The position numbers and the translations under genes are program-made. This document shows, in pieces, positions 1,539-31,591 of a stretch of DNA of 44,703 nt. Below the pieces are notes generated by a model. It saw only the letters and a list, made by a program, of their open reading frames with translations, was not told where the DNA came from and did not search any database. The stretch comes from a virus, in the IMG/VR virus record IMGVR_UViG_3300043811_000093, positions 1 through 44,703 of that record; one strand, written 5' to 3'. Each line of letters begins with the position of its first letter. Position 1 is the stretch's first letter.

Positions 1539-2774
1539 ATGGCAAACAACTTCGTTTTCGCGGACTGGGTCTGCATGGAGACCTTGCGGTCTCTCATCAA
1601 CAAGAGCCAGGTCGCGCAGTTTTTCAACACCGATTACAACAAAGAGTTCAAAAAGAACTGGGCCGTGGGCGACACCGTCCGCGTGAAATATCCGCAGCGC
1701 TTTTTGATCGTCAACGGCCTGGGCTATCAGGAACAGCCCATCGACCGGCGCTACACCACGGTGGCCGTCAACCAGGTGTTCGGCGTGCACTTCGGCTGGG
1801 ACGACATGGAAGCCGCGTTGAAGCTCGAACGCCCGAACGACGCGATCAAAAAGGAATACATCGATAAGGCCGCGGAGCAACTGTCCGCCGAGCTCGATGC
1901 CCGCTGTGGCCTTTGGGCCGCACAGAACACGAACAATATCACCGGCATTCTGGGCGTCACTCCCACGCAGCCGCAGACCTACCATGCCGCCAACACGCGC
2001 ATGCTCGAAAACTCGGCCCTCTCGGGCGAGCGCGGTCTGATCATTACCCCGCAGATGCAGGAGACCCTCGCGGTCAATGCACTGCCTCAGTTCAATCCCC
2101 AGTCCGATATCTCGAAGATCTGGAAAGACGGATCGCTCGGGAAATTCGCGGGCTTCGACAGCTACGTTTCTGTCAACGGCCTGTACTCGCAGACCGCCGG
2201 CACGATCGCGGGCGCCAACACCACCACCGGCGCGAACCAGTCCGGAGCCTCGCTGCTCATCACGGCAACGGCCGGCGACACCTATAACGTCGGGGACGTT
2301 TTCACCCTGGCGCTGGTCAATAACGCCAACCCGGTCAGCCGGCGCTCGGTCGGACGCCTGAAGCAATTCAGCGTCACCGTCGCGCTCACTTGCGTCGGAG
2401 GCGGCGCGGACCTCCTGCAATTCCTGCCCGCCATCGAAGGGCCCGGATCGCAGTATCAGAACGTCGACGCGCTGCCCGGCGCGCTCGCGGCCATGACCAT
2501 GTACCCCGGCACGACCTCGCCCAACGGCAAGAGCGGCATGCAGGGCCTGGCGCTCACCAAGAACGCGTTTGCACTCGTCGGAGTGCCGCTCGAAAAGCCC
2601 GTCTCGCAGGAGATGGCGTCTTCCATGCGCGATCCGGCAACAGGTCTTGCGGTGCGCTTCGTCAAGAGCTGGGATCAGCCCACCTCCAGCATGCGCCATC
2701 GCCTGGAAATGGCGATCGGCTTCGGAAATCTTTACAACGATCAAGGAGCGGTCCGCATTCTCTCGCAGGCGTAA
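1539..2774 (+). CDS. Major capsid (coat) protein, P22 gp5-like
   Basis: 411 aa, close to the 430 aa of P22 coat. An AAAGGA site precedes the ATG. The N-terminal part (WVCMETLRSLINKSQVAQFF) is the helix-rich arm typical of this family. It is followed by the segment GDTVRVKYPQRF, a helix with DDMEAALKLERPNDAIKKEYIDKAAEQLSAELDARC, and IITPQMQETL. The last ~60 residues match the family pattern of a conserved arginine/serine-rich end. It follows the scaffold gene and should form the icosahedral shell. The terminator at 3907 ends the transcript that contains it, which would favour high coat dosage. Confidence 0.88.
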   Translation: MANNFVFADWVCMETLRSLINKSQVAQFFNTDYNKEFKKNWAVGDTVRVKYPQRFLIVNGLGYQEQPIDRRYTTVAVNQVFGVHFGWDDMEAALKLERPNDAIKKEYIDKAAEQLSAELDARCGLWAAQNTNNITGILGVTPTQPQTYHAANTRMLENSALSGERGLIITPQMQETLAVNALPQFNPQSDISKIWKDGSLGKFAGFDSYVSVNGLYSQTAGTIAGANTTTGANQSGASLLITATAGDTYNVGDVFTLALVNNANPVSRRSVGRLKQFSVTVALTCVGGGADLLQFLPAIEGPGSQYQNVDALPGALAAMTMYPGTTSPNGKSGMQGLALTKNAFALVGVPLEKPVSQEMASSMRDPATGLAVRFVKSWDQPTSSMRHRLEMAIGFGNLYNDQGAVRILSQA

Positions 2775-2805: not shown

Positions 2806-3891
2806 ATGAAAAACACGAATCGTATTTCGCTCGCTCTCGCGTTCGCGGCGGCATTATTGCTGCCCGCGATCGCACCCGCGCAGGTGCTCGTCAGCGGAGT
2901 CAACTCCTTCAACACGACCACTCTGTCGGCCGCGCAAAGCATGACCGCCACGTCTCTGGTCGTGGCCTCGGCCACCGGCTTCACCATCGGCGATGCGCTC
3001 TACATCGACGGCGAGGTGGAGATCATCGGCGGCAAGCTGCCGTATCCGCCTTATGCCGCTTATGCCGGCGGAACCACCGTTCCGGTCTTCCGCACCGGAA
3101 GCCAGGGCGGCGCGCAAGTCGGCGCGCATGTCTCGGGCGCGATTGTGGTCCGGGGACTGCCGCGCTACTTCAACGCGTTCAACCCGACCGGCGCCTGCCC
3201 GGTGCCGGTGACCAATGGCGGGACTACGCCGGCCACGGTGCCGACGTCGCCCTGGGTCAATACCAGGACGGGAGACATCTTCCGCTGCTACGGCACGCCC
3301 TCGCAATGGGGCAAGGTCGGAGTCTTCTTCGTGCCGGCCGGCCAGTGCAACTGGATTCCGACCACGTTGACGCAGACCACGACGTTCCCGGTCACCGGCC
3401 TCGGCGCCACGCTGTTCATGCCCGTCTCCAATTCGGTCACCAGCGCCGCCGCGGGCACCGACACGCTGAACTGCTGGTTTGTGGTGCCGTCCGAGGTGGG
3501 CCAGCTACGGACCGCCCTGCTCACCGATATCACCGTGGGCATCGGATCCCAGGTCGTGGCTCCGACTTCGCTCGGCACCGCGACGCTCACCTCGATCACG
3601 TTTCCCACGCCGGTGGCCACCACGCAGACTGCGACCACGCAGACCGTGACGGCCGCGGTGGGAGGCACCGTCACGCAGATCGGCCCGACCACGACCGTTC
3701 TGTCGGTGACCACGGCCGGCGATTTCCTGACGTTTAACTATCAGTTCTCGGCGCCGGTGGATCTGACCACGGATCTGCGAATGCTGAACTTCACGCTGCC
3801 GATTCTTCAATCGGCGGCCTCGGCGATGACGCTCAACACCAACGGTCTGTTCGTACACTATCTGACTCGACCGTCGGTCCTGAATCGGTAG
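2806..3891 (+). CDS. Exported virion-module protein with signal peptide, unknown function
   Basis: 361 aa. It begins with a textbook Sec signal: MKNTNR, a hydrophobic core SLALAFAAALLLPAIA, then PAQ, with likely cleavage before or after Gln. The mature part is beta-rich with many Thr/Val/Ser, an opening stretch SLVVASATGFTIGDALYIDGEVEI and four spaced cysteines (GACPVPV, FRCYG, GQCNW, LNCWF), compatible with disulfides outside the cytoplasm. It lies 31 bases after the coat gene and just before a strong terminator, so it is likely co-expressed with coat. In tailed phages this place usually holds a decoration or head-completion protein, but a Sec signal on such a protein is odd. The family is not recognised. 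Confidence 0.75.
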   Translation: MKNTNRISLALAFAAALLLPAIAPAQVLVSGVNSFNTTTLSAAQSMTATSLVVASATGFTIGDALYIDGEVEIIGGKLPYPPYAAYAGGTTVPVFRTGSQGGAQVGAHVSGAIVVRGLPRYFNAFNPTGACPVPVTNGGTTPATVPTSPWVNTRTGDIFRCYGTPSQWGKVGVFFVPAGQCNWIPTTLTQTTTFPVTGLGATLFMPVSNSVTSAAAGTDTLNCWFVVPSEVGQLRTALLTDITVGIGSQVVAPTSLGTATLTSITFPTPVATTQTATTQTVTAAVGGTVTQIGPTTTVLSVTTAGDFLTFNYQFSAPVDLTTDLRMLNFTLPILQSAASAMTLNTNGLFVHYLTRPSVLNR

Positions 3892-3906
3892 TCTTTTCCT
3901 CCCCTT

Positions 3907-3935
3907 GGGGGCGGCTTCCACCGCCCCCTTTTTTT
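3907..3935 (+). terminator. Rho-independent terminator after the coat unit
   Basis: A perfect 8-bp GC stem (GGGGGCGG 3907-3914 with CCGCCCCC 3921-3928), a six-base loop (CTTCCA) and seven T (3929-3935). It is the clearest intrinsic terminator in the window. It lies 16 bases after the stop of the 2806 gene and before the next ribosome binding site. Confidence 0.92.
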
Positions 3936-3960
3936 CAAAATCCATCCACAGGAGACAACC

Positions 3961-4236
3961 ATGTCTGAAGAATACGATCGCTCCGAGTTCATCGGCGCCG
4001 CCACCGCCGACACCGAGAAGGGCGCGACCAAGAAGGCGTATGTCCACAAGGACTGGCCTGCGCTGCGCTATGGCCCGGACGGCAAAGAGCGCAAGGTAAA
4101 CAACCAGAAGGAAGCCGATGCGCTAGGCCCGGATTGGCACGCGACGCCGCCCCTGCCCGAGAAGGAAGAGGACGCGGCCGGCCCCGCGCGCGAGGCAGAG
4201 GTTCGCACCAAAGCCGGCGAAAAACGGAAGAAATAG
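3961..4236 (+). CDS. Small charged protein, unknown
   Basis: 91 aa, with the good ribosome site CAGGAGACAACC before the ATG. It is highly charged and probably mostly disordered: Glu/Asp/Lys/Arg-rich, no hydrophobic core, no cysteine, ending in a Lys/Arg tail (AGEKRKK). The centre reads YVHKDWPALRYGPDGKERKVNNQKEADALG. It is the first gene after the terminator and is separated from the exported protein at 4243 by six bases. No family recognised; small proteins of this type often occur next to coat genes, but no role can be assigned. Confidence 0.75.
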   Translation: MSEEYDRSEFIGAATADTEKGATKKAYVHKDWPALRYGPDGKERKVNNQKEADALGPDWHATPPLPEKEEDAAGPAREAEVRTKAGEKRKK

Positions 4237-4242
4237 GCTGTC

Positions 4243-4962
4243 ATGAAGCGAACCTTCCGCGCGCTCGCTCTTACTCTCGCTCTCGCTCTGAGTCTCGCGG
4301 CTCAGAGCCTGAGCCCGATTTTCAACTCCCAGGACCAGCTCGCCTTCAATGCGGCTTATAAAGCCTCGCTGCCTCCGGACCTGGTCGCGTTCATGGCGCT
4401 GCCCTATGACGCCTCCGACTTCGGCGTCACAGCGTCGACCGCGACCCGCACCACGCCCGCGGTGCTGCTCGCGATCGCCAATAAATATGCCCTCGACACG
4501 CAGACCATGCTGTGGGGCTGGGATCCGTACACGACCGACCTGATCCGGATCGTTCAGGGCTATGCCTGGGTGCCGAGCTTCGGCCAGGCGAATATCGCCG
4601 TCGGGCCCGGCATCAGCACCGCGCTGGTCGCTCCGGCGGGGACTCCCGCCTATGACCCGGCGTCGCCGCCGCCTGGCTCGATCCTCATGCCGGCGGTTTC
4701 GGCGACGGGAAAGATGGCTTTACCCGCGCCGTATGCGGCTCCAGGCGCGCCGCCGGCGCCGGCGGCCGTTGACCCGGTCGGCTTCCTCGAAATGCCTTTC
4801 GGCGCGCCGAACGGCACGGGCGACTGGTACAGCGAGATCACCGGCGATCGCAGCGCGGTCGGAACGGTGGTCAGCGACTCACGCGGGACCTTCAAGCTCA
4901 CCCCGCAGGGACAGCGCAACATCATCACCGGCACGGTGAGCGTGTTCTGGGTCAAGCAGTAG
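4243..4962 (+). CDS. Exported virion-module protein, unknown
   Basis: 239 aa. N-terminal signal peptide: MKRTFRA, a hydrophobic run LALTLALALSLAA, then Q-S-L, with cleavage predicted around AAQ. The mature protein starts SLSPIFNSQDQLAFNAAYKASLPPDLVAFMALP and contains a Pro/Ala-rich linker (residues ~140-180) before a beta-type C-terminal domain ending NIITGTVSVFWVKQ. Unlike its exported neighbours it has no cysteine. The C-terminal region (GDWYSEITGDRSAVGTVVSD) looks like a small globular domain, but no family is recognised. It belongs to the run of signal-bearing genes 2806-11157. Confidence 0.75.
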   Translation: MKRTFRALALTLALALSLAAQSLSPIFNSQDQLAFNAAYKASLPPDLVAFMALPYDASDFGVTASTATRTTPAVLLAIANKYALDTQTMLWGWDPYTTDLIRIVQGYAWVPSFGQANIAVGPGISTALVAPAGTPAYDPASPPPGSILMPAVSATGKMALPAPYAAPGAPPAPAAVDPVGFLEMPFGAPNGTGDWYSEITGDRSAVGTVVSDSRGTFKLTPQGQRNIITGTVSVFWVKQ

Positions 4963-4966
4963 CGCC

Positions 4967-5155
4967 ATGCTCTACGACTCGTTCGGCCGGAAGATCCGGA
5001 AGCCGCACCTCTACGGCTTCGCGCGTGTTCCGGCCGTCGAGCCATCGCGCCGGATCCCGAAAGACGATCTGTGCGACGCGATCGGCTTCGCGGAAATTCA
5101 CGCCGAGGAAGCCCAGGAAGACGACAAACCACAGGAGATCCCCCATGCTTTTTAA
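4967..5155 (+). CDS. Small acidic protein, unknown
   Basis: 62 aa; it starts four bases after the previous stop without a clear Shine-Dalgarno site, so translation is probably coupled. The N-terminal half is basic and aromatic (MLYDSFGRKIRKPHLYGF), the C-terminal half acidic (EIHAEEAQEDDKPQEI). It overlaps the start of the 5145 gene by 11 bases, and that gene's ribosome site lies inside it. No function can be assigned. Confidence 0.6.
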   Translation: MLYDSFGRKIRKPHLYGFARVPAVEPSRRIPKDDLCDAIGFAEIHAEEAQEDDKPQEIPHAF

Positions 5156-5636
5156 ATTCGGCGCGGGCTTCGCGCTGACGCTGGCCATATTTGTGCAGCC
5201 GATGCTCGCGCAGACCATCAGCCCCCCGACTCTGAATCCCTTCATCGCGCGCTATCAGGCCAACGCCACCACGACGGCGCTGACGGTGCAGGGCACCGGC
5301 AAATCCGGAGAGGCTTATTTCGAGACTGCCGACGTCTACTGCGTCGCCTCGCAGAGCGTTTCCATTTCGATCAACGGCACCGCGGCGACGTCGACCACGC
5401 TCGCGCCCGTCGCGATCGGCGTGGCGGCGGTGACGACTCCGCTTACCTCCTGGACGGCATCGAACGCGGGCACCGGCACCACGCTCAAGACCTACGTGAC
5501 CGTGGCCGGGCAGACCATGATCCTCGACCGCGACATGGTCGCGTTCTATTTTCCGTCCAACGCGCCGGCCGCCACGAATCTCACCATCTCGTCGACCGGA
5601 AGCTGCACGATCCACATCCAATGGCGCGCTCTCTAA
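5145..5636 (+). CDS. Small exported virion-module protein
   Basis: 163 aa. The ATG at 5145 is preceded by CAGGAGATCCCCC and yields a clean signal peptide (MLFKFGAGFALTLAIFVQPMLAQ). Upstream in-frame starts would only add residues of the overlapping gene. The mature part is Thr/Ser/Ala-rich and beta-like, with one cysteine near residue 67 (DVYCVASQ) and one near the C-terminus (TGSCTIHIQW) that could pair after export. The end DRDMVAFYFPSNAPAATNLTISSTGSCTIHIQWRAL resembles a compact jelly-roll or Ig-like strand pattern. It overlaps the 5621 gene by 16 bases. Family not recognised. Confidence 0.75.
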   Translation: MLFKFGAGFALTLAIFVQPMLAQTISPPTLNPFIARYQANATTTALTVQGTGKSGEAYFETADVYCVASQSVSISINGTAATSTTLAPVAIGVAAVTTPLTSWTASNAGTGTTLKTYVTVAGQTMILDRDMVAFYFPSNAPAATNLTISSTGSCTIHIQWRAL

Positions 5637-7234
5637 AACTCCTTCTCCTCCTTGCCGGCCTGCTCGCACTGCCGCTCGCCGCGCAGCAGGACCGCCCTAT
5701 CCGTTATTTCCCGACGGATCCGCCCACGCCCTTGTGCCTGGTGATCACCGAATTCTGGAGCAACTGGAACCTCGGCAATTTGTGGCAATGCGTCGCGACG
5801 ACGGCGCCGGTACCGACGATTCCGCCTGGACCCGCGGGGCCCGCCGGACCGGCCGGACCCGCCGGCCCCGCCGGAACCACAGGATCTCCCGGCCCCACGT
5901 CCCTCCTTTCGGGGACGCTCGCCCTGATCCCGGCGAGCTGCACGGTGGGCGCGAACGTCTATCAGGCAATCGATCAGGCGATCAGCCGGCAGATCTATCT
6001 CTGCACCGCGACTAACACCTGGACGCTCCAGACCTATGTCGTCGGGGCCTCTCCTCCGGGGACTTGCACGGTCGGCGACGTCTTTTTCAAAACCGGCGTG
6101 ACCGCGGGCCAGAACGTTTATGGCTGTACAGCGACCAACACGTGGACGCTCGAAAGCGGGGGCGGCGGTACCGGCCTCGTGACCTGGCAGAACAACGGTG
6201 TGACGCAGGGCTCTCCGCGCGGCACGCTCAACGTGATCCCCGGCTTCGGGCTCCTAACGCCGCTACTCGACACCGGCAGCGTGATGGACTTCAGCCCGGC
6301 CGTCGACACGTCGGTCATTCCGAGCAAGGCCAACCTGCAAACCGGGTCCGCGCCGACGACCGTCACCAGCGCGAGCGGGAGCAATACGCACTATACGGCG
6401 AGCGGCACGCCGACTTTCACAACCTATTCGACCGGCCTGAGCCTGCGGTGGACCATCGACACTACCTCGACCTGCACGACCACCTGTGATTTGAACCTGG
6501 ATACGCTGGGAGCCAAGGGCGTCAAGGACTATCAGGGGTTCGCGCTGGTGGGCGGCGCACTGATCGGGGGCTCGACGTACACCGTCACTTACAACGGGAC
6601 GATTTTCCTCGTTTCCGAGCTGGGGATTTCGAGCGGCGGAAGCGTGAATTATCCGACCACCGGCTATCCCTATGCCGTGTTCGGGCAGACGATGGGAGGC
6701 GGCACCGGCACCACCGGAGTCAGCACGGCGAACTACCTCTCCTGTTTTTCGCACGTCTGGGAGATCGACGAAAAAGTCCAATACATCGAAGGGATCGAGA
6801 ACACGGGCGTGCTCTCGACGACCCATTATTCGGTGGCTTTTTATAACACGACCACCAATAACCTCATCGCGCAGACCGGCACCCAGGCGGGCCAGAACGC
6901 GACCACGCCGACCTTCAAGCTGACCTTCGCCTCGCCGCCCACGATCGCCAAGAATCAGGCTGTGGACGTGTGCCTCACGAGTGATGTAGGCGGCACGCCC
7001 CTGGTCATCTCGATCAACGAAAACAACTCGTTTCTGACCGGCAACCCGTGGGGCTATATCGTCACGCAAAACAATGCCATTTTGAACTTCATCTTTTCTC
7101 CCAACGCCACGGCTGTCTCCACGGGAACGAGCACTCTGACGTTTCCGGCGACGACCGGCACGAAGGCCAATGTGGCCAGCGGCTACGCCGGCGCGAATGG
7201 CCACTATCCCCTGATCGCGGCGATTGAACAATGA
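5621..7234 (+). CDS. Exported fibre-like protein with collagen-like repeats
   Basis: 537 aa. Signal peptide MARSLKLLLLLAGLLALPLAAQ. Residues ~68-93 form a Gly-X-Y run (GPAGPAGPAGPAGPAG, then GSPGP), a collagen-like trimer-forming stalk common in fibres. Next come two copies of a motif of about 35 residues (CTVGANVYQ...YLCTATNTWTLQ and CTVGDVFFK...YGCTATNTWTLE), each with a Cys pair. A large beta-rich C-terminal region follows, with another Cys cluster (STCTTTCDL). The paired cysteines fit folding outside the cytoplasm. It overlaps the next gene by ATGA. A trimeric surface or tail fibre that reaches the envelope by Sec export is inferred; receptor binding is possible but not shown. Confidence 0.75.
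   Translation: MARSLKLLLLLAGLLALPLAAQQDRPIRYFPTDPPTPLCLVITEFWSNWNLGNLWQCVATTAPVPTIPPGPAGPAGPAGPAGPAGTTGSPGPTSLLSGTLALIPASCTVGANVYQAIDQAISRQIYLCTATNTWTLQTYVVGASPPGTCTVGDVFFKTGVTAGQNVYGCTATNTWTLESGGGGTGLVTWQNNGVTQGSPRGTLNVIPGFGLLTPLLDTGSVMDFSPAVDTSVIPSKANLQTGSAPTTVTSASGSNTHYTASGTPTFTTYSTGLSLRWTIDTTSTCTTTCDLNLDTLGAKGVKDYQGFALVGGALIGGSTYTVTYNGTIFLVSELGISSGGSVNYPTTGYPYAVFGQTMGGGTGTTGVSTANYLSCFSHVWEIDEKVQYIEGIENTGVLSTTHYSVAFYNTTTNNLIAQTGTQAGQNATTPTFKLTFASPPTIAKNQAVDVCLTSDVGGTPLVISINENNSFLTGNPWGYIVTQNNAILNFIFSPNATAVSTGTSTLTFPATTGTKANVASGYAGANGHYPLIAAIEQ
5822..5899 (+). repeat. Collagen-like Gly-X-Y coding repeat
   Basis: Short GC-rich near-tandem 9-base units encoding Gly-Pro-Ala inside the 5621 gene. 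Such repeats change length easily by slippage. Confidence 0.8.
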
Positions 7235-10200
7235 AACGCTTCCTGCCCTTTTTCCTCGCGCTTCTGGTCTGGGCGGGGCAGAGCTTTGTCTTCAACTTCT
7301 CCACGCAGACCCTCTCGAACCCCTCCGCCCCGGCCCAGAACGGCGCGCTCATGGTCGAGTATTATTTCGACGTAACCCCCACCACGCTGGTCTCGAATCC
7401 CATCTTCCTCTCCTCGGCCGGATCGTACCCGTCGACCGGAATCTCGATCGAGCTCTCGAACGGATGTATCGGCGGGCTCTGCCTGAATGCGTCACTCCCC
7501 AACGAGACTCAGACGCTGGGGAACACCGTGATCGGAACCGGCGCGGGCTATCCGACCTCTGCTCTCGTGATGCGCGTACAGCGCGACGTCGCGGCCCTCG
7601 GCGCCGGCCATGGCGCTAACGATCGCTTCGAAATCTGGGGCTCGGACGCGATAAATCACTATCAGGTCACCGCGCCCTATAGCTCCTACGGGACCACCTC
7701 GAACGGCGCCGGCGTGAACGCCAACGCCGACGGCTTCCGCCTGGCCTTCATGCGCGAGTGCTCGGGCGCGGTATTACCCCTGGGCTCGAAAATGCCCACC
7801 ACCGCCGGCGGCTGCCCGGTGGGGACGCTGGTGTTCGAGTGGAAGTTCGAGGGGAATCTTAACGACTCTTCGACCAATGGCTACAACGCGGCGCTGAGCG
7901 GCGGCGGCTCGACCTCCTATGCGAGTTCTCTCTACCAGGTGCCTTACAGCATCACCCAGAGCTCGCCCGCGCCCTTCTGGTCGAACACCGTCTCCATGCG
8001 CGCGGGCCATCCTAACCCCCTGACGTGCGCGGCTTCGCTTTCACAGGCCGATTCTTCGAACGCCGGGACCTGCTACTGGCAGATCACGGCCTCACCGCTG
8101 ATAAACGGGTCGCCCTTCGTCCCGACGTTCAGCTCATATATGTCGACCACGGGATCTCCGGGCGTAACTCTGAGTCCGTTTGTCTTCGGGGATCACGCCA
8201 TCCAGCAGACCTTCGTCGATGCGAACGGCGCGAGCTCCGTGTCGAGTGTTCACATCGGAGCCGTGGCGACGGATTCTAACTTCGTCGCCATCCATGCCAG
8301 CCCAATAGCCGATCAGATTTTCGGCCCTCACATTATGTGGGGAAAGAACCCCTGGGGCGCGCAGGATTATCTCCAGAGCCAGGCGGTGACGCTTCGCTCG
8401 GCTGTCTATCAGGCCGGCGATCCGGGCATTCCTCCGTCCTGGGACGTCGCGCAACCGGGAACCGTAAGCTATCCCTTCCAGCCTCCGAACGGAACGACCG
8501 TTGCCACCGGCCACGCGGTGGGCGCGACGGATCAGACCATCACCGTCACCGATGCCACGCAACTGGATCTGCTCTCGTTTCCGACCATCATCACCCTCGG
8601 CTATTTCAATGGAAACGGCTACAACACAGGACAAGAGGCCGTCGTTATCTCCGGTTCGGCGGGGAACGTTCTCACCGTCGCCTATGACGGCAGAGGGTTC
8701 CGTTGCGGCACACAGAACCATTCGTGCGCGGCCGCATGGCCCGCCGGCGCCAACGTTCAGCAATTCAAAGTCACCGGCTCCGGAACCAACTTCCTTACCA
8801 ATATCAACCCTCTGGGCGCGGGCTGGTCCGGACCCGCGCTGCCAGGATTCACGGGCACCTGCGCGGTCACGGCGGGCAGCGCGGCGGTTGTTGGGACGAC
8901 CACGAACTGGTCTTCATCCCCTTCCAATTCGCAATACCTTCCCGGCTACGGAATCCAGATTCAGGGCACCAGCGCGACGTCCGTGGCTTTCAGTTTCTAC
9001 GCCTATGTTTCTTCGGTTGCGGACGCCACGCACCTGACGCTCAACCGAGTCTTCCCGGCCGACGCCACCGCTCCATTCTCGGGGCTCACCTGCACTCCGT
9101 TTCGGCCCGATTGGACCAGCATCGTGCTTCATTACGGACGATGCGGCTCCGGGGCTTATCCGGGTTGCCTCGCATACGCTTTTCCGCTGGACGGGCAAAC
9201 CTATTTCCAGACCGACGGCTGCCTCTCGAACACGGCCTGCTATCTCTACAACACGCACGACCCCAACTCCGTTCACCCGACATATTCCACGTGCCTGACG
9301 AGCCCCCCTTACCCGAACACGCAGATGCAGTGCGGCGTTCACTGGTCCTACATGGCGGGCTTCGGCTATGTCGGCGACAACGGGGGGACGAACTTTTACG
9401 ATGAGGGCCTCGCCTGGTACGACCACTATTTGCGCTCGGGGCTCGCCTCGTCGCTGGCTGCTTTCCGCATGGTGGAGGGCCAGGAAGGCACCTCGAACCA
9501 CGGCTATATGTGGTATCCCGAGCTCGCGCAGAACGACATCGGCACGCAGTCCCGCCGCGCCAGCGTGCTCGGAATGTGGGTGGCGTATTTGCTCGATGGC
9601 AAGACCTCCAACCTTTCAGGCCTGAGAAACTTCGCCAACTCGACGGCCACGACCTACATCGGCCCGAACTGTAACACCGACCTCCGCGAAGGCATTGCTT
9701 ATCCTCTGCACTGGCTCGCCGCCGCGGCGGTCTGGGATCCCAGCTCCGTCAGCCTGGGATACCCCACGACTCTGCAGACCTGGTACAACAATTACGCTCC
9801 CTGCCAGGTCACCTCGGGCTCGGCGCTCGTGCAGCACTCCTGGGCGAACAACTTTCTCTGGAATACGAATCAGACACCCGCGCTCACCGCAACCAATGGC
9901 TCGGCGGTCATCACCGGGACCGGCATCCCCTCCGACATTTGCGGGGCGGCGCCCGCGGGCACCGGCACGGCCACCGTCACGCAGAACTCGGACGTGGTCA
10001 CGGGCTCGGGGTTCGTCACCGGCGGCGGCAAAATTCTGTTCGAGGACCCGGGCATGGGGACGCTCACGTTCCGTTATATCTACGACTCCTCGGTCCAGAT
10101 ACATCTTTCGGGCCAATACCCCGGATCAACAGCCTCAGGCGTGGTGTGGTGGATCGACACCGACGCGACAAACAATGGCTCGGGCTTCGATTCGACACTA

Positions 10201-11157
10201 GTATTCGCCGTCAGCGGCGCTGACCCTCAACTCAGCAAGCAGTGGGTATGCACGGCGAGCGGCTCATCCCAGATCACCCTCGATCGAGCCTGGGACGGCC
10301 CGTCGACATCGGTGCTCTATGGCTGGCGCGGCGCCAAGGGCGGCGTCGGCGTGGCGGGAAACGGAACGGAAGTTTTCTACGTTGGCGGTGTCCTCAACCG
10401 GGGGCTCTATACCGCTTCGCTCATCGGCGGAGCCCTGGGGGCGAGCTTCACCACGCTCCAGAACAACGCCACAAATTGGGTCAAGACGTATGGAATCGAT
10501 CCGCTGACTGGGGGCACCTATTACGGCAGAATCTACCCCGGCTCGGAACCGCCCTATGCGGATTCCAGCCAGCCGCTGAACTTCTCCTATCGCAATCCCC
10601 AGGCCTCCTGGCCCGTTTCGTCCGGATCCCCCAACTACAACATTCAGTACTCGCGCTCGCAGCTCGGCGAGATCTCGACGACGTTCTGGTCGAACTACAA
10701 CTCGAATCAGACGGGCGCAAATCAGACCTTTTGGGATGGCGTCTATAAGAACATCTGGGACCTTACCCCCTACACCGCCGCCGGCTTCACCGGGGATGCG
10801 ATCGGGAGCCTCAACTGCAATCTGCAAACCAACTTCGCCGGCGGCAAATGGCCCGGCTTCTGTTTCGGCATCGGCCAGTCGTCCCAATACCCGGCCGGCC
10901 GCCTCGGCGGCCAGCTCGCCGCCATAAATCGCAGTGACGGAGTCGGTTTTTATCTCCCCGGCGTCCCCAACGCGACCAGCGTCAGCATGATCGTCACGGC
11001 GCCGACCGGCATTCCGACGACGACGAACTGCAGCTCGTCTCCCTGCGTGCTGCCGGCCGATGCGCGCCAGGGCGACCACACCCTCGTGATCCAGTACAAA
11101 AGCGCCGGCGGCGCCGTGCTCGCCCAGAGCGATCCGCAAGTCTTAGCCATCCGCTGA
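7231..11157 (+). CDS. Very large exported protein, probable fibre/adhesin or glycan-acting protein
   Basis: 1308 aa, the longest gene. The start overlaps the previous stop (ATGA) and gives a signal peptide (MKRFLPFFLALLVWAGQ). Residues ~195-235 (GTLVFEWKFEGNLNDSST) look like a LamG/concanavalin-type strand opening, and ~280-350 an Ig/PKD-like segment. Around residues 700-850 lies a helical, Trp/Tyr-rich part (EGLAWYDHYLRSGLASSL, REGIAYPLHWLAAAAVW) reminiscent of alpha/alpha-barrel glycan enzymes. Many cysteines come in close pairs (CIGGLC, CGTQNHSC, CGSGAYPGC, CLSNTAC), as in secreted proteins. A host-surface binding or polysaccharide-degrading tail component is inferred; no catalytic residues can be named. 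Confidence 0.72.
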   Translation: MKRFLPFFLALLVWAGQSFVFNFSTQTLSNPSAPAQNGALMVEYYFDVTPTTLVSNPIFLSSAGSYPSTGISIELSNGCIGGLCLNASLPNETQTLGNTVIGTGAGYPTSALVMRVQRDVAALGAGHGANDRFEIWGSDAINHYQVTAPYSSYGTTSNGAGVNANADGFRLAFMRECSGAVLPLGSKMPTTAGGCPVGTLVFEWKFEGNLNDSSTNGYNAALSGGGSTSYASSLYQVPYSITQSSPAPFWSNTVSMRAGHPNPLTCAASLSQADSSNAGTCYWQITASPLINGSPFVPTFSSYMSTTGSPGVTLSPFVFGDHAIQQTFVDANGASSVSSVHIGAVATDSNFVAIHASPIADQIFGPHIMWGKNPWGAQDYLQSQAVTLRSAVYQAGDPGIPPSWDVAQPGTVSYPFQPPNGTTVATGHAVGATDQTITVTDATQLDLLSFPTIITLGYFNGNGYNTGQEAVVISGSAGNVLTVAYDGRGFRCGTQNHSCAAAWPAGANVQQFKVTGSGTNFLTNINPLGAGWSGPALPGFTGTCAVTAGSAAVVGTTTNWSSSPSNSQYLPGYGIQIQGTSATSVAFSFYAYVSSVADATHLTLNRVFPADATAPFSGLTCTPFRPDWTSIVLHYGRCGSGAYPGCLAYAFPLDGQTYFQTDGCLSNTACYLYNTHDPNSVHPTYSTCLTSPPYPNTQMQCGVHWSYMAGFGYVGDNGGTNFYDEGLAWYDHYLRSGLASSLAAFRMVEGQEGTSNHGYMWYPELAQNDIGTQSRRASVLGMWVAYLLDGKTSNLSGLRNFANSTATTYIGPNCNTDLREGIAYPLHWLAAAAVWDPSSVSLGYPTTLQTWYNNYAPCQVTSGSALVQHSWANNFLWNTNQTPALTATNGSAVITGTGIPSDICGAAPAGTGTATVTQNSDVVTGSGFVTGGGKILFEDPGMGTLTFRYIYDSSVQIHLSGQYPGSTASGVVWWIDTDATNNGSGFDSTLVFAVSGADPQLSKQWVCTASGSSQITLDRAWDGPSTSVLYGWRGAKGGVGVAGNGTEVFYVGGVLNRGLYTASLIGGALGASFTTLQNNATNWVKTYGIDPLTGGTYYGRIYPGSEPPYADSSQPLNFSYRNPQASWPVSSGSPNYNIQYSRSQLGEISTTFWSNYNSNQTGANQTFWDGVYKNIWDLTPYTAAGFTGDAIGSLNCNLQTNFAGGKWPGFCFGIGQSSQYPAGRLGGQLAAINRSDGVGFYLPGVPNATSVSMIVTAPTGIPTTTNCSSSPCVLPADARQGDHTLVIQYKSAGGAVLAQSDPQVLAIR

Positions 11158-11197
11158 ATAACCGCCCGCTTCGAACGCGCGCGCAAAGGACCGATCC

Positions 11198-11890
11198 ATG
11201 CTCGTTTCCGACCTCATCTTTTTTTCGTTTCTCGACCTGGGCGCCGTCGCGCCAGGCGAGACGCTCACCGCGGCCGAGCAGGCCGATGCGTTCGCGCGTC
11301 TGAACATGATGCTATCGAGCTGGTCGACCGAAGGTCTAAGCGCGCCGTCGCTGTTTCACGGCTCCTTCGCACTCACCGCCGGCACCAATCTTTACACCCT
11401 CGGCGTCGGCGGCGCCCTCGTCACCGCTTTGCGCCCGATCCGCGTCACCGGCGCGCAGTCCGTCTCCGGCAATTTCCGGATGGGCATGAAGGTCATGAGC
11501 TTTGACCAGTTCGCGCAGCAGGTATCCGACCCGATCGCCTCGGCTTCGGTCCTGGCCGAAGTGCTCGCCGCGGACGGTTCTTTCCCGCTCATCAATCTCC
11601 GCGTTCACCCCATGCCGGCAGCCGCGCCGGGCACATTGTGGCTCGATTATTTCGCCGCGATCGCGCAATTCGTGACGGTGGGGGACACGGTGAACTTGCC
11701 CGACGGCTGGACCGATGCGCTGCATTTCAACCTGGCGATGGCCCTGGCCCCGCAATATGCGAGAGCCGGCGGCATCGATCCCACTCTGGAGGGCAAAGCG
11801 CAGACCAGCAAAGGGGCGCTCAACGCCCTCAACGCGGAGATTCTCGGGCAGCAGCAGGCGCCGCCGCCGCAGCAGCAAGGGGGCCAGTAA
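11198..11890 (+). CDS. Head-to-tail adaptor, P22 gp4-like (copy 1)
   Basis: 230 aa, with AAAGGA upstream. The N-terminal half has the gp4-type signature: an opening helix, then AFARLNMMLSSWSTEGL, then a beta segment FALTAGTNLYTLGVGG and the framework LRPIRVTGAQ. Later comes the family-typical LPDGWTDALHFNLAMALAPQYAR, and the C-terminus ends in a Gln/Pro tail. In P22, gp4 binds the portal ring and closes the DNA channel. Here the protein is longer than P22 gp4 (166 aa) because it includes the C-terminal domain seen in many relatives. The 11890 gene is a recognisable paralogue whose ATG overlaps this stop codon. Confidence 0.8.
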   Translation: MLVSDLIFFSFLDLGAVAPGETLTAAEQADAFARLNMMLSSWSTEGLSAPSLFHGSFALTAGTNLYTLGVGGALVTALRPIRVTGAQSVSGNFRMGMKVMSFDQFAQQVSDPIASASVLAEVLAADGSFPLINLRVHPMPAAAPGTLWLDYFAAIAQFVTVGDTVNLPDGWTDALHFNLAMALAPQYARAGGIDPTLEGKAQTSKGALNALNAEILGQQQAPPPQQQGGQ

Positions 11891-12633
11891 TGGCCGATCC
11901 TACCGCAACCTGCGCGACGCTCGTGGGCGCAGCCCTGCGCATTGCCGGTATCACCGGCCGCCCCGGCCGGGTCGCCGCGCCCGATCAGTCAACCGAGGCG
12001 ATCACCGTCCTGAACGAGATGCTCGGATCCTGGAACACCGACCCGCTGAAGATTTTCGAGACCTCGATCGATAGGTATGCGCTGACACCGTTCCAGACCA
12101 CTTATTTCATCGGACCGACCGGCAATTTCGTGGCGCCGCGGCCCTCGAAAATCGTGCGCGCGAACGTCGTGCTCACCGGCTTCACGCCGGAGCTGCACCG
12201 CCCGCTCGGACTGTACGAGGTGACCGACTGGGCCGGCCTCTCGATCCCCGAGCTGCCCGGCGCCTGGCCGCGGCGGCTCTATAACGATCACGCGATGCCG
12301 GACTCGCAACTGTATCTCTATCCGGTCGTTTCGATCGCGTCCGACCTGGAGCTGTTCACATTGCTCGCCCTCCAGCAGTTCGCCGCGCTCACCGACGTCG
12401 TGGTGCTTCCGGACGGATATCTGCGGGCCATCACCTTCAACCTGGCGCTGGAGCTCGCGGCCTACTATCCGCACGACGCGCAGGTCGCCGAGAACGCGCC
12501 GGGGATCGCGCGCGACTCGCTGGCCCTGATCGAGAGCCGCAACTCGCCGGTACCGCGAATGGTAAACGACGCATCCGGACTTAGCCGGCCGCGCGGCGGC
12601 GACTCGCAGTGGTGGCGGAGCGGAGGGTTCTGA
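11890..12633 (+). CDS. Head-to-tail adaptor, P22 gp4-like (copy 2)
   Basis: 247 aa; its ATG overlaps the upstream TAA (TAATG). The architecture matches the preceding gene: ITVLNEMLGSWNTDPLKIFE, YALTPFQTTYFIGPTGNF, PSKIVRANVVLTGF, and LPDGYLRAITFNLALELAAYY. The two proteins are clearly homologous but diverged. P22 has only one gp4, so this is a duplicated adaptor; one copy may contact the portal and the other the gp10-like hub. The C-terminal ~40 residues are Arg/Ser/Gly-rich and probably flexible. Confidence 0.8.
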   Translation: MADPTATCATLVGAALRIAGITGRPGRVAAPDQSTEAITVLNEMLGSWNTDPLKIFETSIDRYALTPFQTTYFIGPTGNFVAPRPSKIVRANVVLTGFTPELHRPLGLYEVTDWAGLSIPELPGAWPRRLYNDHAMPDSQLYLYPVVSIASDLELFTLLALQQFAALTDVVVLPDGYLRAITFNLALELAAYYPHDAQVAENAPGIARDSLALIESRNSPVPRMVNDASGLSRPRGGDSQWWRSGGF

Positions 12634-12635
12634 AC

Positions 12636-14087
12636 ATGAAATATCTGGCTTTTCTATTGGCGCTGGTCACGGCCGGGGCGCAAGTCGTCCCGCCGGTCGG
12701 CACGAACCCGCCGGGGGTCTGGCGGCTCATCTCGCAGGCGATCCCGGTGGTGGTGCCTCCGCAGGGCTATGTGGTCTCGACCACCTATGCCTATGCGGCG
12801 CAAACGCCGGGCGGAACGCTCACCGGCGGCTTCCCGGCAACCGCCATCCTGACGCCCTGCCCGGCGGGGGTCAGCGGAACCGACACTCTGATTCACTTCT
12901 ATATTTCGGGCGGCACGGGAACGGCTGAGGGCGTCACCTCGACCGGCGGAGGCACCTCGGGAACCACCTGCACCGTGAAGTTCACGCCGGCGAATAACCA
13001 CACCGGCGCGTGGACCATCCAAAGCGCTTCTCAGGGCATTTATGAGGCCGTGGCGGCCAACCCCGGAAAGCAAATCTATATGCCCGCCGGCGTTTATACG
13101 ATGCGGGACTGCATGTCCTTCAATCCCGATCTGCCGCTGAGTCTGACCGGAGCCAATTCCGGGAGCACGGGCACCACCACGTTTTTGAGCTTCGGAGGCG
13201 TCACCAACATCTGCAACGCGATCACCATCAGCGATACGGCGATCAACAGCACGGAGCCGAAATTATTGAGTCATTTCCAGATGCAGGGCACGGGCACGAG
13301 CACGGGGGGAAGCGGCATCAAGCTGAATAACGTGGTGCGCGTGACGCTCGACGGCGTGCAGGTCAACAGCTTCGCGCTCGACGGCGTGGTCATGACGAAC
13401 GCTTTCGAAACCCTGATCACGGGCGGGTGCCAGTTCATCTACAACGGCCACTGGGGCGTCGACATGGTGGGAACGCTGAATCTCAACCGGATCGAGCACT
13501 CTTATTTCGGCCAAAATTCCCGGTCGAGCGGCTTCGGAAATATTTCGATCATTGGGACGAGTTCCACCTCGGGGGCGGAATCGGTCGTCCTCGACGGCGT
13601 GGATGTGGAGGGAGCGGGGACGCTTCCGTTTACTTCAGTCGCGACGGCCTATGGCCTCTTCGTCCAGAACGTCCTCGCCTTTACGCTCGCGAACTCCTAC
13701 CTCGAAGGGAATCTCACCGACGCGGTTCTCTACCAGGGCGGCGTCAGCGGATTGACCGAGTACAACAACTGGATCAACACGTCGGGAATCATCTACGCCT
13801 CGGGAACCGTGAGTGTGAAGAGCTGGAACAACACTTTCGTGAGCGGCGCGACGCGCACGGTTACCGGCGTCGACCTGAGCACCTGGGAAATCGGTCCGGA
13901 CTCCTGCGTGGGAGGCACCACGGAATGCACCCAGCATCCGCGCACCCTGGCGATGTATGGCTCGACCGGGGCGGGCTCGGCGCTCCTGGGGACCAACTCC
14001 CCGGCGTCGACTCTCACGGCGCCCTATACGTGGCTCAAAATGCTAGCACCGGACGGGAGCGTAGTCTATCTCCCGGCCTGGAAATGA
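12636..14087 (+). CDS. Exported beta-helix tailspike-like protein
   Basis: 483 aa. The start at 12636 gives a signal peptide (MKYLAFLLALVTAGAQ). From about residue 140 there is a right-handed parallel beta-helix pattern of repeated short strands with turns: GKQIYMPAGVYTMRDC, IKLNNVVRVTLDGVQV, MTNAFETLITGGCQF, LNLNRIEHSYFGQN, VVLDGVDVEG, TLANSYLEGNL. This is the fold of phage tailspikes and pectate lyases. Several cysteines (TPCP, TTCTV, DSCVGGTTECTQ) fit an oxidising compartment. It lies between the adaptors and the gp10-like gene and probably binds or cleaves a host surface polysaccharide. Active-site acids cannot be assigned by eye. Confidence 0.78.
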   Translation: MKYLAFLLALVTAGAQVVPPVGTNPPGVWRLISQAIPVVVPPQGYVVSTTYAYAAQTPGGTLTGGFPATAILTPCPAGVSGTDTLIHFYISGGTGTAEGVTSTGGGTSGTTCTVKFTPANNHTGAWTIQSASQGIYEAVAANPGKQIYMPAGVYTMRDCMSFNPDLPLSLTGANSGSTGTTTFLSFGGVTNICNAITISDTAINSTEPKLLSHFQMQGTGTSTGGSGIKLNNVVRVTLDGVQVNSFALDGVVMTNAFETLITGGCQFIYNGHWGVDMVGTLNLNRIEHSYFGQNSRSSGFGNISIIGTSSTSGAESVVLDGVDVEGAGTLPFTSVATAYGLFVQNVLAFTLANSYLEGNLTDAVLYQGGVSGLTEYNNWINTSGIIYASGTVSVKSWNNTFVSGATRTVTGVDLSTWEIGPDSCVGGTTECTQHPRTLAMYGSTGAGSALLGTNSPASTLTAPYTWLKMLAPDGSVVYLPAWK

Positions 14088-15826
14088 AAATTCCGCTGGT
14101 CGGCCAGGATTTCACGTCGCGCTCGCCGGCCGTGTCGGGGCAAACCTGCATCAACGTTTACCCCTCGCCGATCGACGATCCGAACGAAGCTTCGACGATC
14201 GCGACGGCGACGGCCGCCGCGCGCGGCAAGAACAAAGCGGTGCTCTATGGCTGCCCCGGCAAGCACACCATCGGCACCTACTCGTCGCAGTTGCGCGGCC
14301 TGTGGAGTGGAGGCGGCCGCTGCTTCATCGTCATCTCGACCGGCTTCATTCTCGAGATCAGCTCGGCGGGCGCGATCATCAGCTCGAACGCGTTTCCCTC
14401 GTGGACCGACAACGGCCTGCCGGTCCAGATGTTCGCGAACGGCACGCAACTGCTGATCATCGCCGGAGGCCTGGCCTACTGCGACAATGGCGCGGGGCCG
14501 GTCGTCTGCACCGTCGACAATTATGCCGGCGCGGTCAACGTGTTCGGCTACGGCGTGTCCTGGGTCTCGGGCGATATGTTCAACGCCGACGGATCCTGGG
14601 TCGGGCGGAACATCGTCATCAACGGCTCGAATTACACCATCTCAGGCACCGATCCGGGCGGCTTCGCCGGCAATGTGAGCCCGCCCACTCCCACGCTGTT
14701 GTTTGTCACCACCGTGGTCGCGGTGACCTCGCCGCCATCCTATGCCTATAGCGCGCTCGGCACCACGCTCACCGCCGTTGCGGGCGCGGTGCTCGATGGG
14801 ACCTTCTTCGTGCAGCGGCCGGCGCTCTCGGGAATCGGCGGGACCTATGACACCGGCCGGCAAGTGAATTTCTCGGCGGTGCTCGACGGCACGACCTGGA
14901 ACGGGCTCGATTTTTTCTCGAAGGAAGGCTATCCCGACTATTTGCGGTCCATCCAGAGCGATGGCGTGCAGCTCTATCTGTGGGGCACGGAAACCTTCGA
15001 AGTCTGGCAGGCGGATCCGAACGCGGTGCCCGGCGGAAATCCCTTCGTCGAGCTGATCGGCGCCGGCGGGCGCTATGGGAATATCTCGACCTTCGCGCAG
15101 GGCGCGATCGACGGCCACATCTATTTCCTGGGCGGCGACGATCGCGGCCAGATCTGCGCCTATGTCATGAACGGCTACAGCCCGGTCCGGATCTCGACCC
15201 ACGCCCAGGAGGCGAGCTGGCAGGCCAACGCGATGGGCGCGAACGCGGTCTCCTATACCTACATGGAGGAAGGCCACTCGTTCTGGTGCATTAATTTCGG
15301 CGGGCAAACCTGGTGTTTCGATCCGGAGACCGGCGCCTGGCATCAGCGCTACAAATGGACCGGCTCGGCCTTCGCGCCCTATCAGACCAATTTGCACACC
15401 TTCATCCCCGAGTGGGGCGCCGGCGGCATGCACGTCACCGCATGGACCGGCGCGGCCGGCGTCTTCCAGTCGAGCACGCTGTTTTACGACGACGTCGGCA
15501 CCGACATGGCCTGGCAGCGCGTGCTGCCCTACATCTACAACGACGGCAAGTGGCAGTATTTCGGGCGGCTCGATCTCGAAATGGAAACCGGATCCGCGCC
15601 GGCCGGGCTTCCGGCGATCACGCTCGATTATTCGGACGACCGCGGCGTCACGTTTCAAAATCCGCGGGTGGCGACGGTCGCGGCGCCGATCGATGCGTCC
15701 TCGACGCGCGTCTTCTGGAATCGTAACGGCAAATCGCGCGGCCGGCTTCCGCGGCTCTCCGGAGCCGGCCAGTATCGCGTGGCGCTGATTGACGCCGACT
15801 GGGACATCACCCTGGGGACGGTATGA
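14084..15826 (+). CDS. Packaged-DNA stabilisation protein, P22 gp10-like
   Basis: 580 aa, longer than P22 gp10 (472 aa). ATGA overlap with the upstream stop. Family features are clear: the opening MKIPLVGQDFTSRSPAVSGQ; the segment DGTTWNGLDFFSKEGYPDYLRSI; LYLWGTETFEVWQ; AQGAIDGHIYFLGGDDRG; the late strand LDYSDDRGVTF; and the end GRLPRLSGAGQYRVALIDADWDI. In P22 this protein forms the hub that attaches below gp4 and carries tailspikes and the needle. It is followed by the needle-position gene, with an ATGA overlap. Confidence 0.85.
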   Translation: MKIPLVGQDFTSRSPAVSGQTCINVYPSPIDDPNEASTIATATAAARGKNKAVLYGCPGKHTIGTYSSQLRGLWSGGGRCFIVISTGFILEISSAGAIISSNAFPSWTDNGLPVQMFANGTQLLIIAGGLAYCDNGAGPVVCTVDNYAGAVNVFGYGVSWVSGDMFNADGSWVGRNIVINGSNYTISGTDPGGFAGNVSPPTPTLLFVTTVVAVTSPPSYAYSALGTTLTAVAGAVLDGTFFVQRPALSGIGGTYDTGRQVNFSAVLDGTTWNGLDFFSKEGYPDYLRSIQSDGVQLYLWGTETFEVWQADPNAVPGGNPFVELIGAGGRYGNISTFAQGAIDGHIYFLGGDDRGQICAYVMNGYSPVRISTHAQEASWQANAMGANAVSYTYMEEGHSFWCINFGGQTWCFDPETGAWHQRYKWTGSAFAPYQTNLHTFIPEWGAGGMHVTAWTGAAGVFQSSTLFYDDVGTDMAWQRVLPYIYNDGKWQYFGRLDLEMETGSAPAGLPAITLDYSDDRGVTFQNPRVATVAAPIDASSTRVFWNRNGKSRGRLPRLSGAGQYRVALIDADWDITLGTV

Positions 15827-16959
15827 ACGCTCCGCGGGTTCCGACGCAGTCGACGGCGCCGTTCGACGGGCCCAGCCAGCCGCTTTTCAATAAGCCGTGG
15901 TGGGGCTTTTATGAAGAGCTGACCAGGGGACTCGGGCTGTCTCTGCATACGTCGACGTCGGGCACGCACGCGGCGCGCCTGGCGACGGATCCCACCCAAT
16001 TTCCGTTTCCGCTGGGAGCGCTTTTTGCCGAAACGGATCGCGCGGTCTATCAGATTCGCGTGGTCACCTCGCCGGGCGGCTCGCCGGCGCCGACCTGGGT
16101 TTATGCCTATGGCGAGATGGCGGCGCCGATCGCTTCGCTGCCGGCCGATCTCTCGATCAATGACTCGGGCTTTCTGTTCGACGCGACCGACTATGGGCAC
16201 AAGCTGCGCTGGAACGTCCTCGAGATCACGGCCGCAAGCTGGGCGGGCGGCGTCGCGAGCATCACCGTTCCGGGGCATTCATACTTCGTAGGCCAGAGCA
16301 TCACCATCGCCGGCGCCGAGGCGATTGGGTTCAACACGACGGCCGCCATCACGGTTGTCGCGGGGAGCGTCATCAGCTATGCGCTCGCGTCGAATCCCGG
16401 CGCATACATCAAGGCGGGCTTCGCCTGCGGGTGGGGCTGGGCGCCTGGCGAAGAAGGCTCGGGGCGCATGGTCGTGTTCGAGGTGGATCCGACCGGCGCC
16501 GGCTGGCACCTCTACGACGGCACCGTGGGCGTCGTTTATCTCAAGGCCGACGGAACCACCGGCCTTGTCACGCTTCCGGATCTGGTCTCGACCACGGCCA
16601 AAGCGGCTTATCTCAAAATGGGTAGTCCGGATGCCGGAGTCGTCGCGGCGATCGCTCCGGTCGCCACCGGCGCCGCCGGCGTCATTGCGGTCGCGGTGAC
16701 CGGCATCAGCAACCCGGCCGCGACCGGCTCGGCGGGCTCTCTCAATACCGGCAACGATAGCGCGACCAAGATCGTAGCCTCCGGAACCGGCGCCACGGTG
16801 GCAGCGGATCCGCACACTCACCTGGCGGCCGCCCACACGCACACGATCGGCGCGCCCACGGATCCGGGCCACACGCATACGTTCACGCCGACGCAGCCCA
16901 CGATCTCGGCGACGGGCGAGCCGCAGAACCTGGTGCGGCGGCCCTGGTTTAGACAGTGA
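15823..16959 (+). CDS. Virion protein at the tail-needle position, with His-Thr-His tail
   Basis: 378 aa, overlapping the gp10-like stop by ATGA. It starts MNAPRVPTQSTAPFDGPSQPLFNKPWWGFYEEL, and the N-terminal region may dock it on the tail hub. The middle is beta-rich (residues ~150-230). The C-terminal third is Ala/Gly/Thr-rich and ends with spaced His-Thr-His groups (ADPHTHLAAAHTHTIG and PGHTHTF), the kind that binds metal ions at the tips of phage fibres. P22 has its needle gene 26 here, but no long trimeric coiled coil is visible, so this may be a short fibre or plug instead. Confidence 0.65.
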   Translation: MNAPRVPTQSTAPFDGPSQPLFNKPWWGFYEELTRGLGLSLHTSTSGTHAARLATDPTQFPFPLGALFAETDRAVYQIRVVTSPGGSPAPTWVYAYGEMAAPIASLPADLSINDSGFLFDATDYGHKLRWNVLEITAASWAGGVASITVPGHSYFVGQSITIAGAEAIGFNTTAAITVVAGSVISYALASNPGAYIKAGFACGWGWAPGEEGSGRMVVFEVDPTGAGWHLYDGTVGVVYLKADGTTGLVTLPDLVSTTAKAAYLKMGSPDAGVVAAIAPVATGAAGVIAVAVTGISNPAATGSAGSLNTGNDSATKIVASGTGATVAADPHTHLAAAHTHTIGAPTDPGHTHTFTPTQPTISATGEPQNLVRRPWFRQ

Positions 16960-22459: not shown

Positions 22460-22897
22460 TCACTTCGCTGGCGCGGCCTTGGGCAAGGCAAGACGCCGCG
22501 CCTCGGCTGCGTGCGCGGATTGCTCTTCGGGCGTAGATCCTTCAACCTTCTCGCGGAACAGCCTGAGCGCGGCCACTATTGGCACGGCGGCATTCGCCGG
22601 CTCTCCGTAGAATCTGTCGACCCCGATCTCGATCTCGGCAAATGTACTGGCAGCAAAGAGCAGGCTCAATGTGTCATACGGCTTCGCGGGAGGGTGAGGA
22701 CCGATCGCTGCGACAGCGTTGGCATAAAGATCGGCGCTGCCCAAACCGTCGGCCATACCGATCAAGTAATAGGTCTTCCCGGTTGAACTCAGTCCTGCCC
22801 ACCATCGACCATTCTTTAGGGTGAAAGTGAGCTGATTCTCGGGGATCTGAGCAGCCAGGGCAATTCCGGCCAACATCAAAATCGCAATTTGTTTCAT
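22460..22897 (-). CDS. Exported protein, unknown
   Basis: 145 aa with signal peptide MKQIAILMLAGIALAAQ, again ending in Ala-Ala-Gln like the virion-module proteins. The mature region begins IPENQLTFTLKNGRWWAGLS and contains YYLIGMADGLGSADLYA and a helical end (NAAVPIVAALRLFREKVEG). No cysteines. It overlaps the upstream gene's stop by four bases (ATGA). A periplasmic or secreted role is inferred from the signal only; the region GRWWAGLSSTGKTYYLIGM resembles short Rap1a/Tai-type immunity proteins, but this is too weak for a call. Confidence 0.7.
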   Translation of the reverse strand: MKQIAILMLAGIALAAQIPENQLTFTLKNGRWWAGLSSTGKTYYLIGMADGLGSADLYANAVAAIGPHPPAKPYDTLSLLFAASTFAEIEIGVDRFYGEPANAAVPIVAALRLFREKVEGSTPEEQSAHAAEARRLALPKAAPAK

Positions 22898-25262: not shown

Positions 25263-25322
25263 GTGAGCGACGAGACCATCATAGAGGTACACCCGGAGGA
25301 TTTCTTCAATGGCCGAGCATAG
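25263..25322 (+). CDS. Possible 19-aa leader before the recombinase
   Basis: GTG at 25263 to TAG at 25320-25322 encodes an acidic peptide (SDETIIEVHPEDFFNGRA). It overlaps the first codons of the recombinase, so its translation could help open that start. AGGGAA lies about 11 bases upstream. No other support. Confidence 0.3.
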   Translation: MSDETIIEVHPEDFFNGRA

Positions 25323-30943: not shown

Positions 30944-31591
30944 TCATGTCCGCACGCTTTTAGGAGTCTCGGGAGCCACCTCGAGCACTCCATTCGTGGC
31001 CATCCAGTCGCGGCAGTACTGGATGTGCCGGGCGTACTCGGCGACCTCGGCGGCGCTGTAGCCTTCGCGCCGGCCCACCGCCGCGTAATGTTCCTCCCAC
31101 CATGTCAGTGGATGGTGCAGGCACCCGATGGTCATGAAGCCGGGGGTCCTCACGATGATCCAGTGTTGTGAGCCGCTGAGCTGCAGAGGAATGATGCCGT
31201 TGGGCAGCAGTCCTTTCGCGCCCCTCAGATTCGCGCCCCTCAGATACGCGCCGCTCAGATCCGCGCCCCTCAGATTCGCGCCCCTCAGATACGCGCCCCC
31301 CAGATCCGCGCCCCCCAGATACGCGCCCTCCAGATGCGCGCCCTCCAGATTCGCGCCCCTCAGATTCGCGCCCTCCAGATTCGCGCCCCTCAGATTCGCG
31401 CCCTCCAGATTCGCGCCCTCCAGATTCGCGCCCTCCAGATACGCGCCGCTCAGATCCGCGCCCCTCAGATACGCGCCCTCCAGATTCGCGCCCTTGGCGA
31501 CGGCCTGGACGACCGCCGCCGGCAAATCGGCGCAGTCCTCGCTGTGATAAAGCACAGCCCGGGTCAAGCGATGCAGTATGTCGAAGCTCAT
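30944..31591 (-). CDS. Pentapeptide-repeat protein
   Basis: 215 aa. Residues 35-124 contain 18 uninterrupted pentapeptides of form A(N/D/Y/H)L(E/R/S/G)G, which fold as a right-handed quadrilateral beta-helix. The N-terminal part ([33 protein letters not shown]) and the C-terminal domain ([54 protein letters not shown]) recur in other phage pentapeptide proteins. Known relatives such as Qnr and MfpA mimic DNA and act on gyrase; here the role is unproven. A weak ribosome site GAAAGAG precedes the ATG. Confidence 0.88.
31220..31489. repeat. Tandem 15-bp repeat encoding the pentapeptides
   Basis: Eighteen 15-base units (plus-strand pattern ending CCCTCAGATTCGCG with variants) in a 270-base array. 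The high unit identity also makes other frames look open; unit copy number can change by slippage. Confidence 0.85.

Follow-up and report, generated by a model that had tools for sequence, protein, structure and literature searches.

Tailed phages are usually taught to assemble wholly in the cytoplasm. Why, then, do six genes in the virion region of a P22-like podovirus appear to encode proteins with Sec signal peptides (SPs), and what may become of these proteins during infection? The DNA analyzed here, referred to as the window, is a virus record of 44.7 kb (44,703 nucleotides), assigned to the P22-like podoviruses by profile and family matches. Its structural genes follow the P22 order, from portal (PF16510, 1.5e-85) and coat through a gp4-type adaptor and a gp10-type closure protein to an ejection protein (phrog_598), and the six genes sit between coat and gp10 (Table 1); no SP is present on the genes for the core of the head or for ejection.

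Lysis-type genes lie at about 37–40 kb, including an SLT lysozyme at 37604. The last gene (44319-44703) seems to be resumed at 1-427, one frame off, so that the genome is probably circularly permuted and nearly complete in this record, apart from a small gap or error. The two gp4-like adaptor genes are mutually diverged; the pair is also present in L005 and L006, and most other relatives have a single copy. Other genes observed were a NusG/RfaH-like transcription factor, unusual in a phage (36001-36534, +; PF02357, 1.8e-15), whose best plasmid matches are below 36% identity, a class 3 lipase-like alpha/beta hydrolase adjoining the lysis region (36531-37178, +; PF01764, 3.8e-10), a serine resolvase/recombinase that may reflect a temperate lifestyle or an inversion function (25309-25938, +; PF00239, 1.5e-35), and a pentapeptide-repeat protein (30944-31591, −; PF00805, 3.4e-52).

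Table 1. Genes of the structural module and further SP genes of the window, with predicted signal peptides and cleavage sites
Feature	Position	Strand	Predicted SP	Before cleavage	After cleavage	Mature Cys	Remarks
P22-like major coat protein	1539..2774	+	none				PF11651 4.8e-13; phrog_283 8.7e-45
2806 family SP protein	2806..3891	+	2806-2880	MKNTNRISLALAFAAALLLPAIAPA	QVL	4	directly 3' of coat; mature from Q26 (2881-3891)
SP protein, 239 aa	4243..4962	+	4243-4302	MKRTFRALALTLALALSLAA	QSL	0	
SP protein, 163 aa	5145..5636	+	5145-5210	MLFKFGAGFALTLAIFVQPMLA	QTI	2	
SP protein, 537 aa	5621..7234	+	5621-5683	MARSLKLLLLLAGLLALPLAA	QQD	10	
SP protein, 1308 aa	7231..11157	+	7231-7278	MKRFLPFFLALLVWAG	QSF	24	ATGA overlap with 5621
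Two tandem gp4/Ad3-like head-tail adaptors	11198-11890 and 11890-12633	+	none				family matches
SP protein, 483 aa	12636..14087	+	12636-12680	MKYLAFLLALVTAGA	QVV	7	possibly beta-helix, spike-like
gp10/Hc3-like head-closure protein	14084..15826	+	none				phrog_578 2.2e-48
Needle- or fibre-like protein after gp10	15823..16959	+	none				phrog_9998, weak; C-terminus His-Thr-His-rich
Small SP protein, 145 aa	22460..22897	−	22850-22897	MKQIAILMLAGIALAA	Q	0	opposite strand
Small SP protein, 164 aa	38637..39131	+	38637-38681	MKAFTFLLFALTCGA	Q	2	near lysis genes

Signal peptides in the structural module

All six open reading frames were found at the starts proposed in the sequence-only reading, and by inspection and a rule-based detector each has the full anatomy of a Sec SP, with a basic n-region, a hydrophobic core and, overall, small residues at −3 and −1. 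That reading had described the cleavage sites as A-x-A-Q or G-Q, which holds for 2806 and 12636 (strict A-x-A-Q) and for 7231 (A-G before Q), but not for 4243, 5145, and 5621, which have L or M at −3; the three-residue sites of these three proteins and of 7231 are less canonical yet plausible. Cysteines were indeed present in five of the six mature proteins, and the small proteins 22460 and 38637, said to share the same signal type, both have a predicted cleavage before Q and both pass the detector. Among the 43 predicted genes the detector called the six and 38637, 22460 having passed in a separate test, and its lone extra call in the window, 39690, is weak and probably false. The detector makes false calls on 3% of shuffled N-termini and 1% of internal segments, and its strict version undercounts, missing charged c-regions and late starts and scoring only three proteins in the window. 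On sequence grounds, we consider it very probable that the export signal of the six proteins works.

Phage genes with dual starts exist, and the ATG at −3 in 5145 would suit a scheme in which each gene yields a longer exported product and, from an internal start, a shorter cytoplasmic one that enters the virion. Internal restart was rejected as an explanation, since the six genes do not consistently offer a restart codon close to the cleavage site, and 4243 and 7231 offer none; such dual products seem to us extremely improbable.

The protein encoded downstream of the coat gene

Relatives were taken as the best 80 of 180 viral contigs matched by a coat alignment, and in about 50 of these 80 a 2806-type protein is encoded directly after the coat. 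An SP was called by rule in 39 of 43 members of this family and was recognized by inspection in all members with an intact N-terminus, versus none of the portal (0/51), scaffold (0/63), coat (0/59), and gp10 (0/44) genes of the same contigs; gp4-like genes gave 0/49 and 1/20, and ejection genes none, in counts that ignore the kinship between contigs. The predicted SP on the post-coat protein is a trait of the lineage. A search for a 2806 homologue in phage isolates gave none that was convincing.

Among 37 family members the n-region is net positive in every one, position −3 is mostly a small residue and −1 is A or G, the Q at +1 in this set being a product of the site-picking rule; in an alignment made independently of the cleavage site, +1 is Q in 41/42 sequences and −1 is A in 36/42. 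The hydrophobic core is degenerate, with an identity within the family of 0.21 in the h-region versus 0.40 at the mature start, and the window protein is 22–30% identical to the other members. Mature proteins of the family have exactly four (n = 32) or two (n = 4) cysteines, and never an odd number. Three members (L063, L093, and L027) have an A-C-G stretch in the leader that could be a lipobox, and some of the family may therefore be lipoproteins.

A hydrophobic N-terminus could instead be a peptide that anchors the protein to the particle, as for RcGTA head fibres, which attach via a hydrophobic N-terminal peptide (PMC7296036) with an Ile/Leu-Gly repeat, and one tail on many different appendages would suit a common socket. 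However, the conserved part of the 2806 family N-termini consists of signal peptidase I features, namely the A or G at −1 and the Q at +1 of the independent alignment, whereas the core has degenerated; the conservation is that of a cleavage signature and not of RcGTA-type anchoring residues. Moreover, a separate docking domain already follows in relatives, as described below, and the small genes 38637 and 22460 share the signal outside the virion module. Anchoring appears quite improbable as the role of these N-termini.

The N-terminal beta domain of 2806 was modelled with confidence by AF2, and Foldseek gave phage virion proteins as its top matches, weak in the PDB; the family profile matched a minor tail protein (8vjh, 2.6e-9) and tip attachment protein J (8rk3, 5e-5) in the PDB. 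The protein thus has a domain in common with phage tail proteins. A 2806-type domain was also observed in L088, in an SP-less protein of 114 aa encoded between portal and scaffold (6162-6506).

Spike and fibre candidates

A domain of about 100 aa is common to 19 proteins, one of them a duplicate, and its alignment (A7) matches 7eeq_A, 'Tailspike head-binding domain' (3e-14), and the tail spike 9vyg (3e-13). In 12 SP proteins of the relatives this domain comes immediately after the predicted cleavage site, the SP having been called by rule in nine and by eye in L119, L078, and L096, which break the detector rule. In six comparator P22-like phages (Rhodoferax P26218, DSL-LC05, a Manatee Spring phage, Vibrio VvAW1, Pseudomonas PAE2, and Vibrio 1.211.A), several of whose proteins are clear tail proteins, it begins at residues 3–7 with no SP. 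At least two cysteines are found within the domain in 12/12 SP versions versus 0/6 SP-less ones, each of which has at most one (Fisher 5.4e-5, in a test that ignores phylogeny). The domain was not detected in the SP proteins of the window, where the best candidate was 7231, with an unconvincing E of 0.0016 in a search of 19 proteins, and the head-binding argument is therefore one of analogy with the relatives.

Near-complete relatives encode large SP proteins either behind the ejection genes or in the gp4–gp10 interval, with lengths of 512, 1405, 800, and 613 aa in G013, 485, 402, 787, and 1303 aa in G018, and 668, 2134, 577, and 659 aa in G002; such large, cysteine-rich proteins occupy the places of spike and fibre genes. 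By the strict rule, SP proteins of at least 300 aa number 19 in 12 genomes of the group (window included) versus none in seven other P22-like phages. Further SP proteins have tail-fibre or tailspike domains, with PF21882 above the cut-off in L015, PF12708 together with tail spike PHROGs in L005, and tail fiber PHROGs in L019 and L108. Large SP proteins are absent from G010 and some other relatives, and L006 has an SP-less spike-like protein in the corresponding slot, so that members of the clade can do without export.

Several of the relatives' SP proteins also contain domains that are characteristic of proteins secreted by bacteria (CHB_HEX_C_1, HYDIN-type Ig, and RHS repeat), and these would suit two other explanations. 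The exported proteins might never join the virion and instead affect the cell that makes them or its environment, whether by excluding superinfecting phages, by serving as receptor decoys or surface adhesins, or as soluble enzymes that loosen the capsule or matrix ahead of lysis, much as known exported phage proteins such as T4 RI (PMC8385771) and spackle gp61.3 (PMC7650644) act in the envelope. We find this unlikely, because a virion-docking domain is kept right after the cleavage site in 12 proteins of relatives, the SP genes are mixed in among head-tail genes (12636 is flanked by gp4 and gp10), their products of 140–2134 aa are unlike small exclusion proteins, and in G013 the large ORFs observed after the ejection genes are of SP type, leaving no other obvious spike candidate. 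Alternatively, spike domains may have been fused to host surface-protein genes whose leader is tolerated but unused, and the A-Q sites, like those of Granulicella (Acidobacteriota; small numbers), would agree with such an origin. The SP is kept, however, in essentially all of the diverged 2806 family while its core drifts, and the cysteine content of the head-binding domain varies together with the SP, so that unused leaders are very improbable. Pfam and PHROG scans of the window proteins matched no family of the T4 RI or spackle type. A further SP protein, of 1303 aa and with a weak RHS repeat match, was observed in the phage tail region of L120 (2298-6209, −).

The A-Q usage was compared between 20 SPs of one Granulicella plasmid and those of two further plasmids (8 and 13 SPs); it hints at an Acidobacteriota host, from a sample too small for a conclusion. 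Two genome scans for a prophage relative of the window, as a clue to the host, found none.

Returning to the spikes and fibres, family searches with the six window proteins gave weak matches at most. The 5621 protein has a short collagen-like Gly-Pro-Ala stretch, of the kind found in many tail fibres, to which its weak match to phrog_366 tail fiber (5.6e-4) is limited. The 12636 protein matches Beta_helix (Pfam) below the cut-off, and the fold matches of its low-confidence AF2 model, phage tailspikes and polysaccharide lyases, lend modest support. Its last 41 aa are 71–76% identical to the tips of SP-less tail fibres, one of which has a collagen-like stretch; a search of this tip against the phage collection gave no match. 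An SP is present in all homologues of 5145 (L005, L057, and L061) and in the 12636 homologues of L126 and L121. The former of these two (4134-6380, +) has different neighbours, by eye a terminase-like gene and other large genes, and exported spikes may thus extend beyond P22-like phages. Searches found no relatives of 4243, 5621, or 7231; the orphan status of 4243 and 7231, and the odd number of cysteines in 12636, count against regarding these proteins as appendages. Nevertheless, there is good support for the earlier proposal of export signals on the receptor-binding apparatus, given that the SPs of relatives precede the head-binding domain or tail-fibre domains and that 12636 ends in the tip of an SP-less fibre. 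The six proteins are probably virion appendages, and it is rather likely that they are exported appendages of a P22-like particle.

A possible assembly route

From features that are read directly in the sequences, namely the presence and conservation of the signal peptides, the even cysteine numbers of the 2806 family, and the position of the SP before the head-binding domain in relatives, we infer actual export, disulfides, presence in the virion, and a moment of docking. Spike and fibre proteins would be made with cleavable Sec signal peptides and would cross the inner membrane during infection, the host signal peptidase cutting between A and Q or G and Q, and the mature appendages would acquire their fold and their disulfides in the periplasm. 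The building and filling of heads, with the signal-less portal, gp4, gp10, and ejection proteins, would meanwhile take place in the cytoplasm. Once the inner membrane is opened by the phage lysis proteins, the two pools would mix, and the appendages would then dock onto the tail, completing at lysis a virion drawn from two compartments. P22 tailspikes are reportedly added last, and their addition to heads is said to be possible in vitro.

As for the other half of the earlier proposal, attachment outside or at the envelope, the sequences taken alone would fit docking at lysis, an outer-membrane location, or action apart from the virion; as relatives keep the docking domain, docking at lysis is favoured, and we lean slightly towards it, although dilution must compete with docking after lysis. 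That virions of a widespread tailed-phage lineage are completed in this manner, from cytoplasmic heads and Sec-exported, disulfide-bonded receptor-binding appendages docked at lysis, seems to us an evenly balanced proposition. If spikes and fibres are exported first, periplasmic disulfide chemistry becomes usable, the appendages stay separated from heads until lysis, and they might also act on the cell envelope in the meantime. For environmental data the search rule is simple, as a signal peptide that precedes a docking domain flags such phages, and annotators should bear in mind that a large phage ORF whose product is secreted and rich in cysteine may encode a receptor-binding protein.

Comparison with known systems

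Exported phage lysis and exclusion proteins are already known (PMC6116005, PMC8385771, PMC7650644). The fOg44 endolysin, which has a signal peptide, T4 RI, and spackle gp61.3 likewise leave the cytoplasm during infection, but they are lysis or exclusion proteins, unlike spikes and fibres with virion-docking domains. In searches of a library of open-access papers we found no report of signal peptides on the tailspikes or fibres of tailed phages, and the two-compartment route would be, as far as we found, one not described for them. P22-like tailspikes, with a 7eeq-type head-binding domain and an Sf6-like beta-helix, share that domain with the SP proteins of the relatives, and the 12636 protein may resemble a beta-helix spike. 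The comparator tailspikes start directly with the domain and have no signal, whereas in the relatives an SP precedes it and a cysteine pair lies within it. The RcGTA head fibre also has a hydrophobic N-terminus on a fibre protein, but one with no described cleavage-site signature, while here conservation falls on the features of a signal peptidase site.

The coat proteins of filamentous phages are made with signal sequences. The route proposed here would resemble theirs in passing virion proteins through the export machinery, with the difference that filamentous virions are assembled in the inner membrane and extruded from it, whereas the present particle would be tailed and of the lysis-released type.
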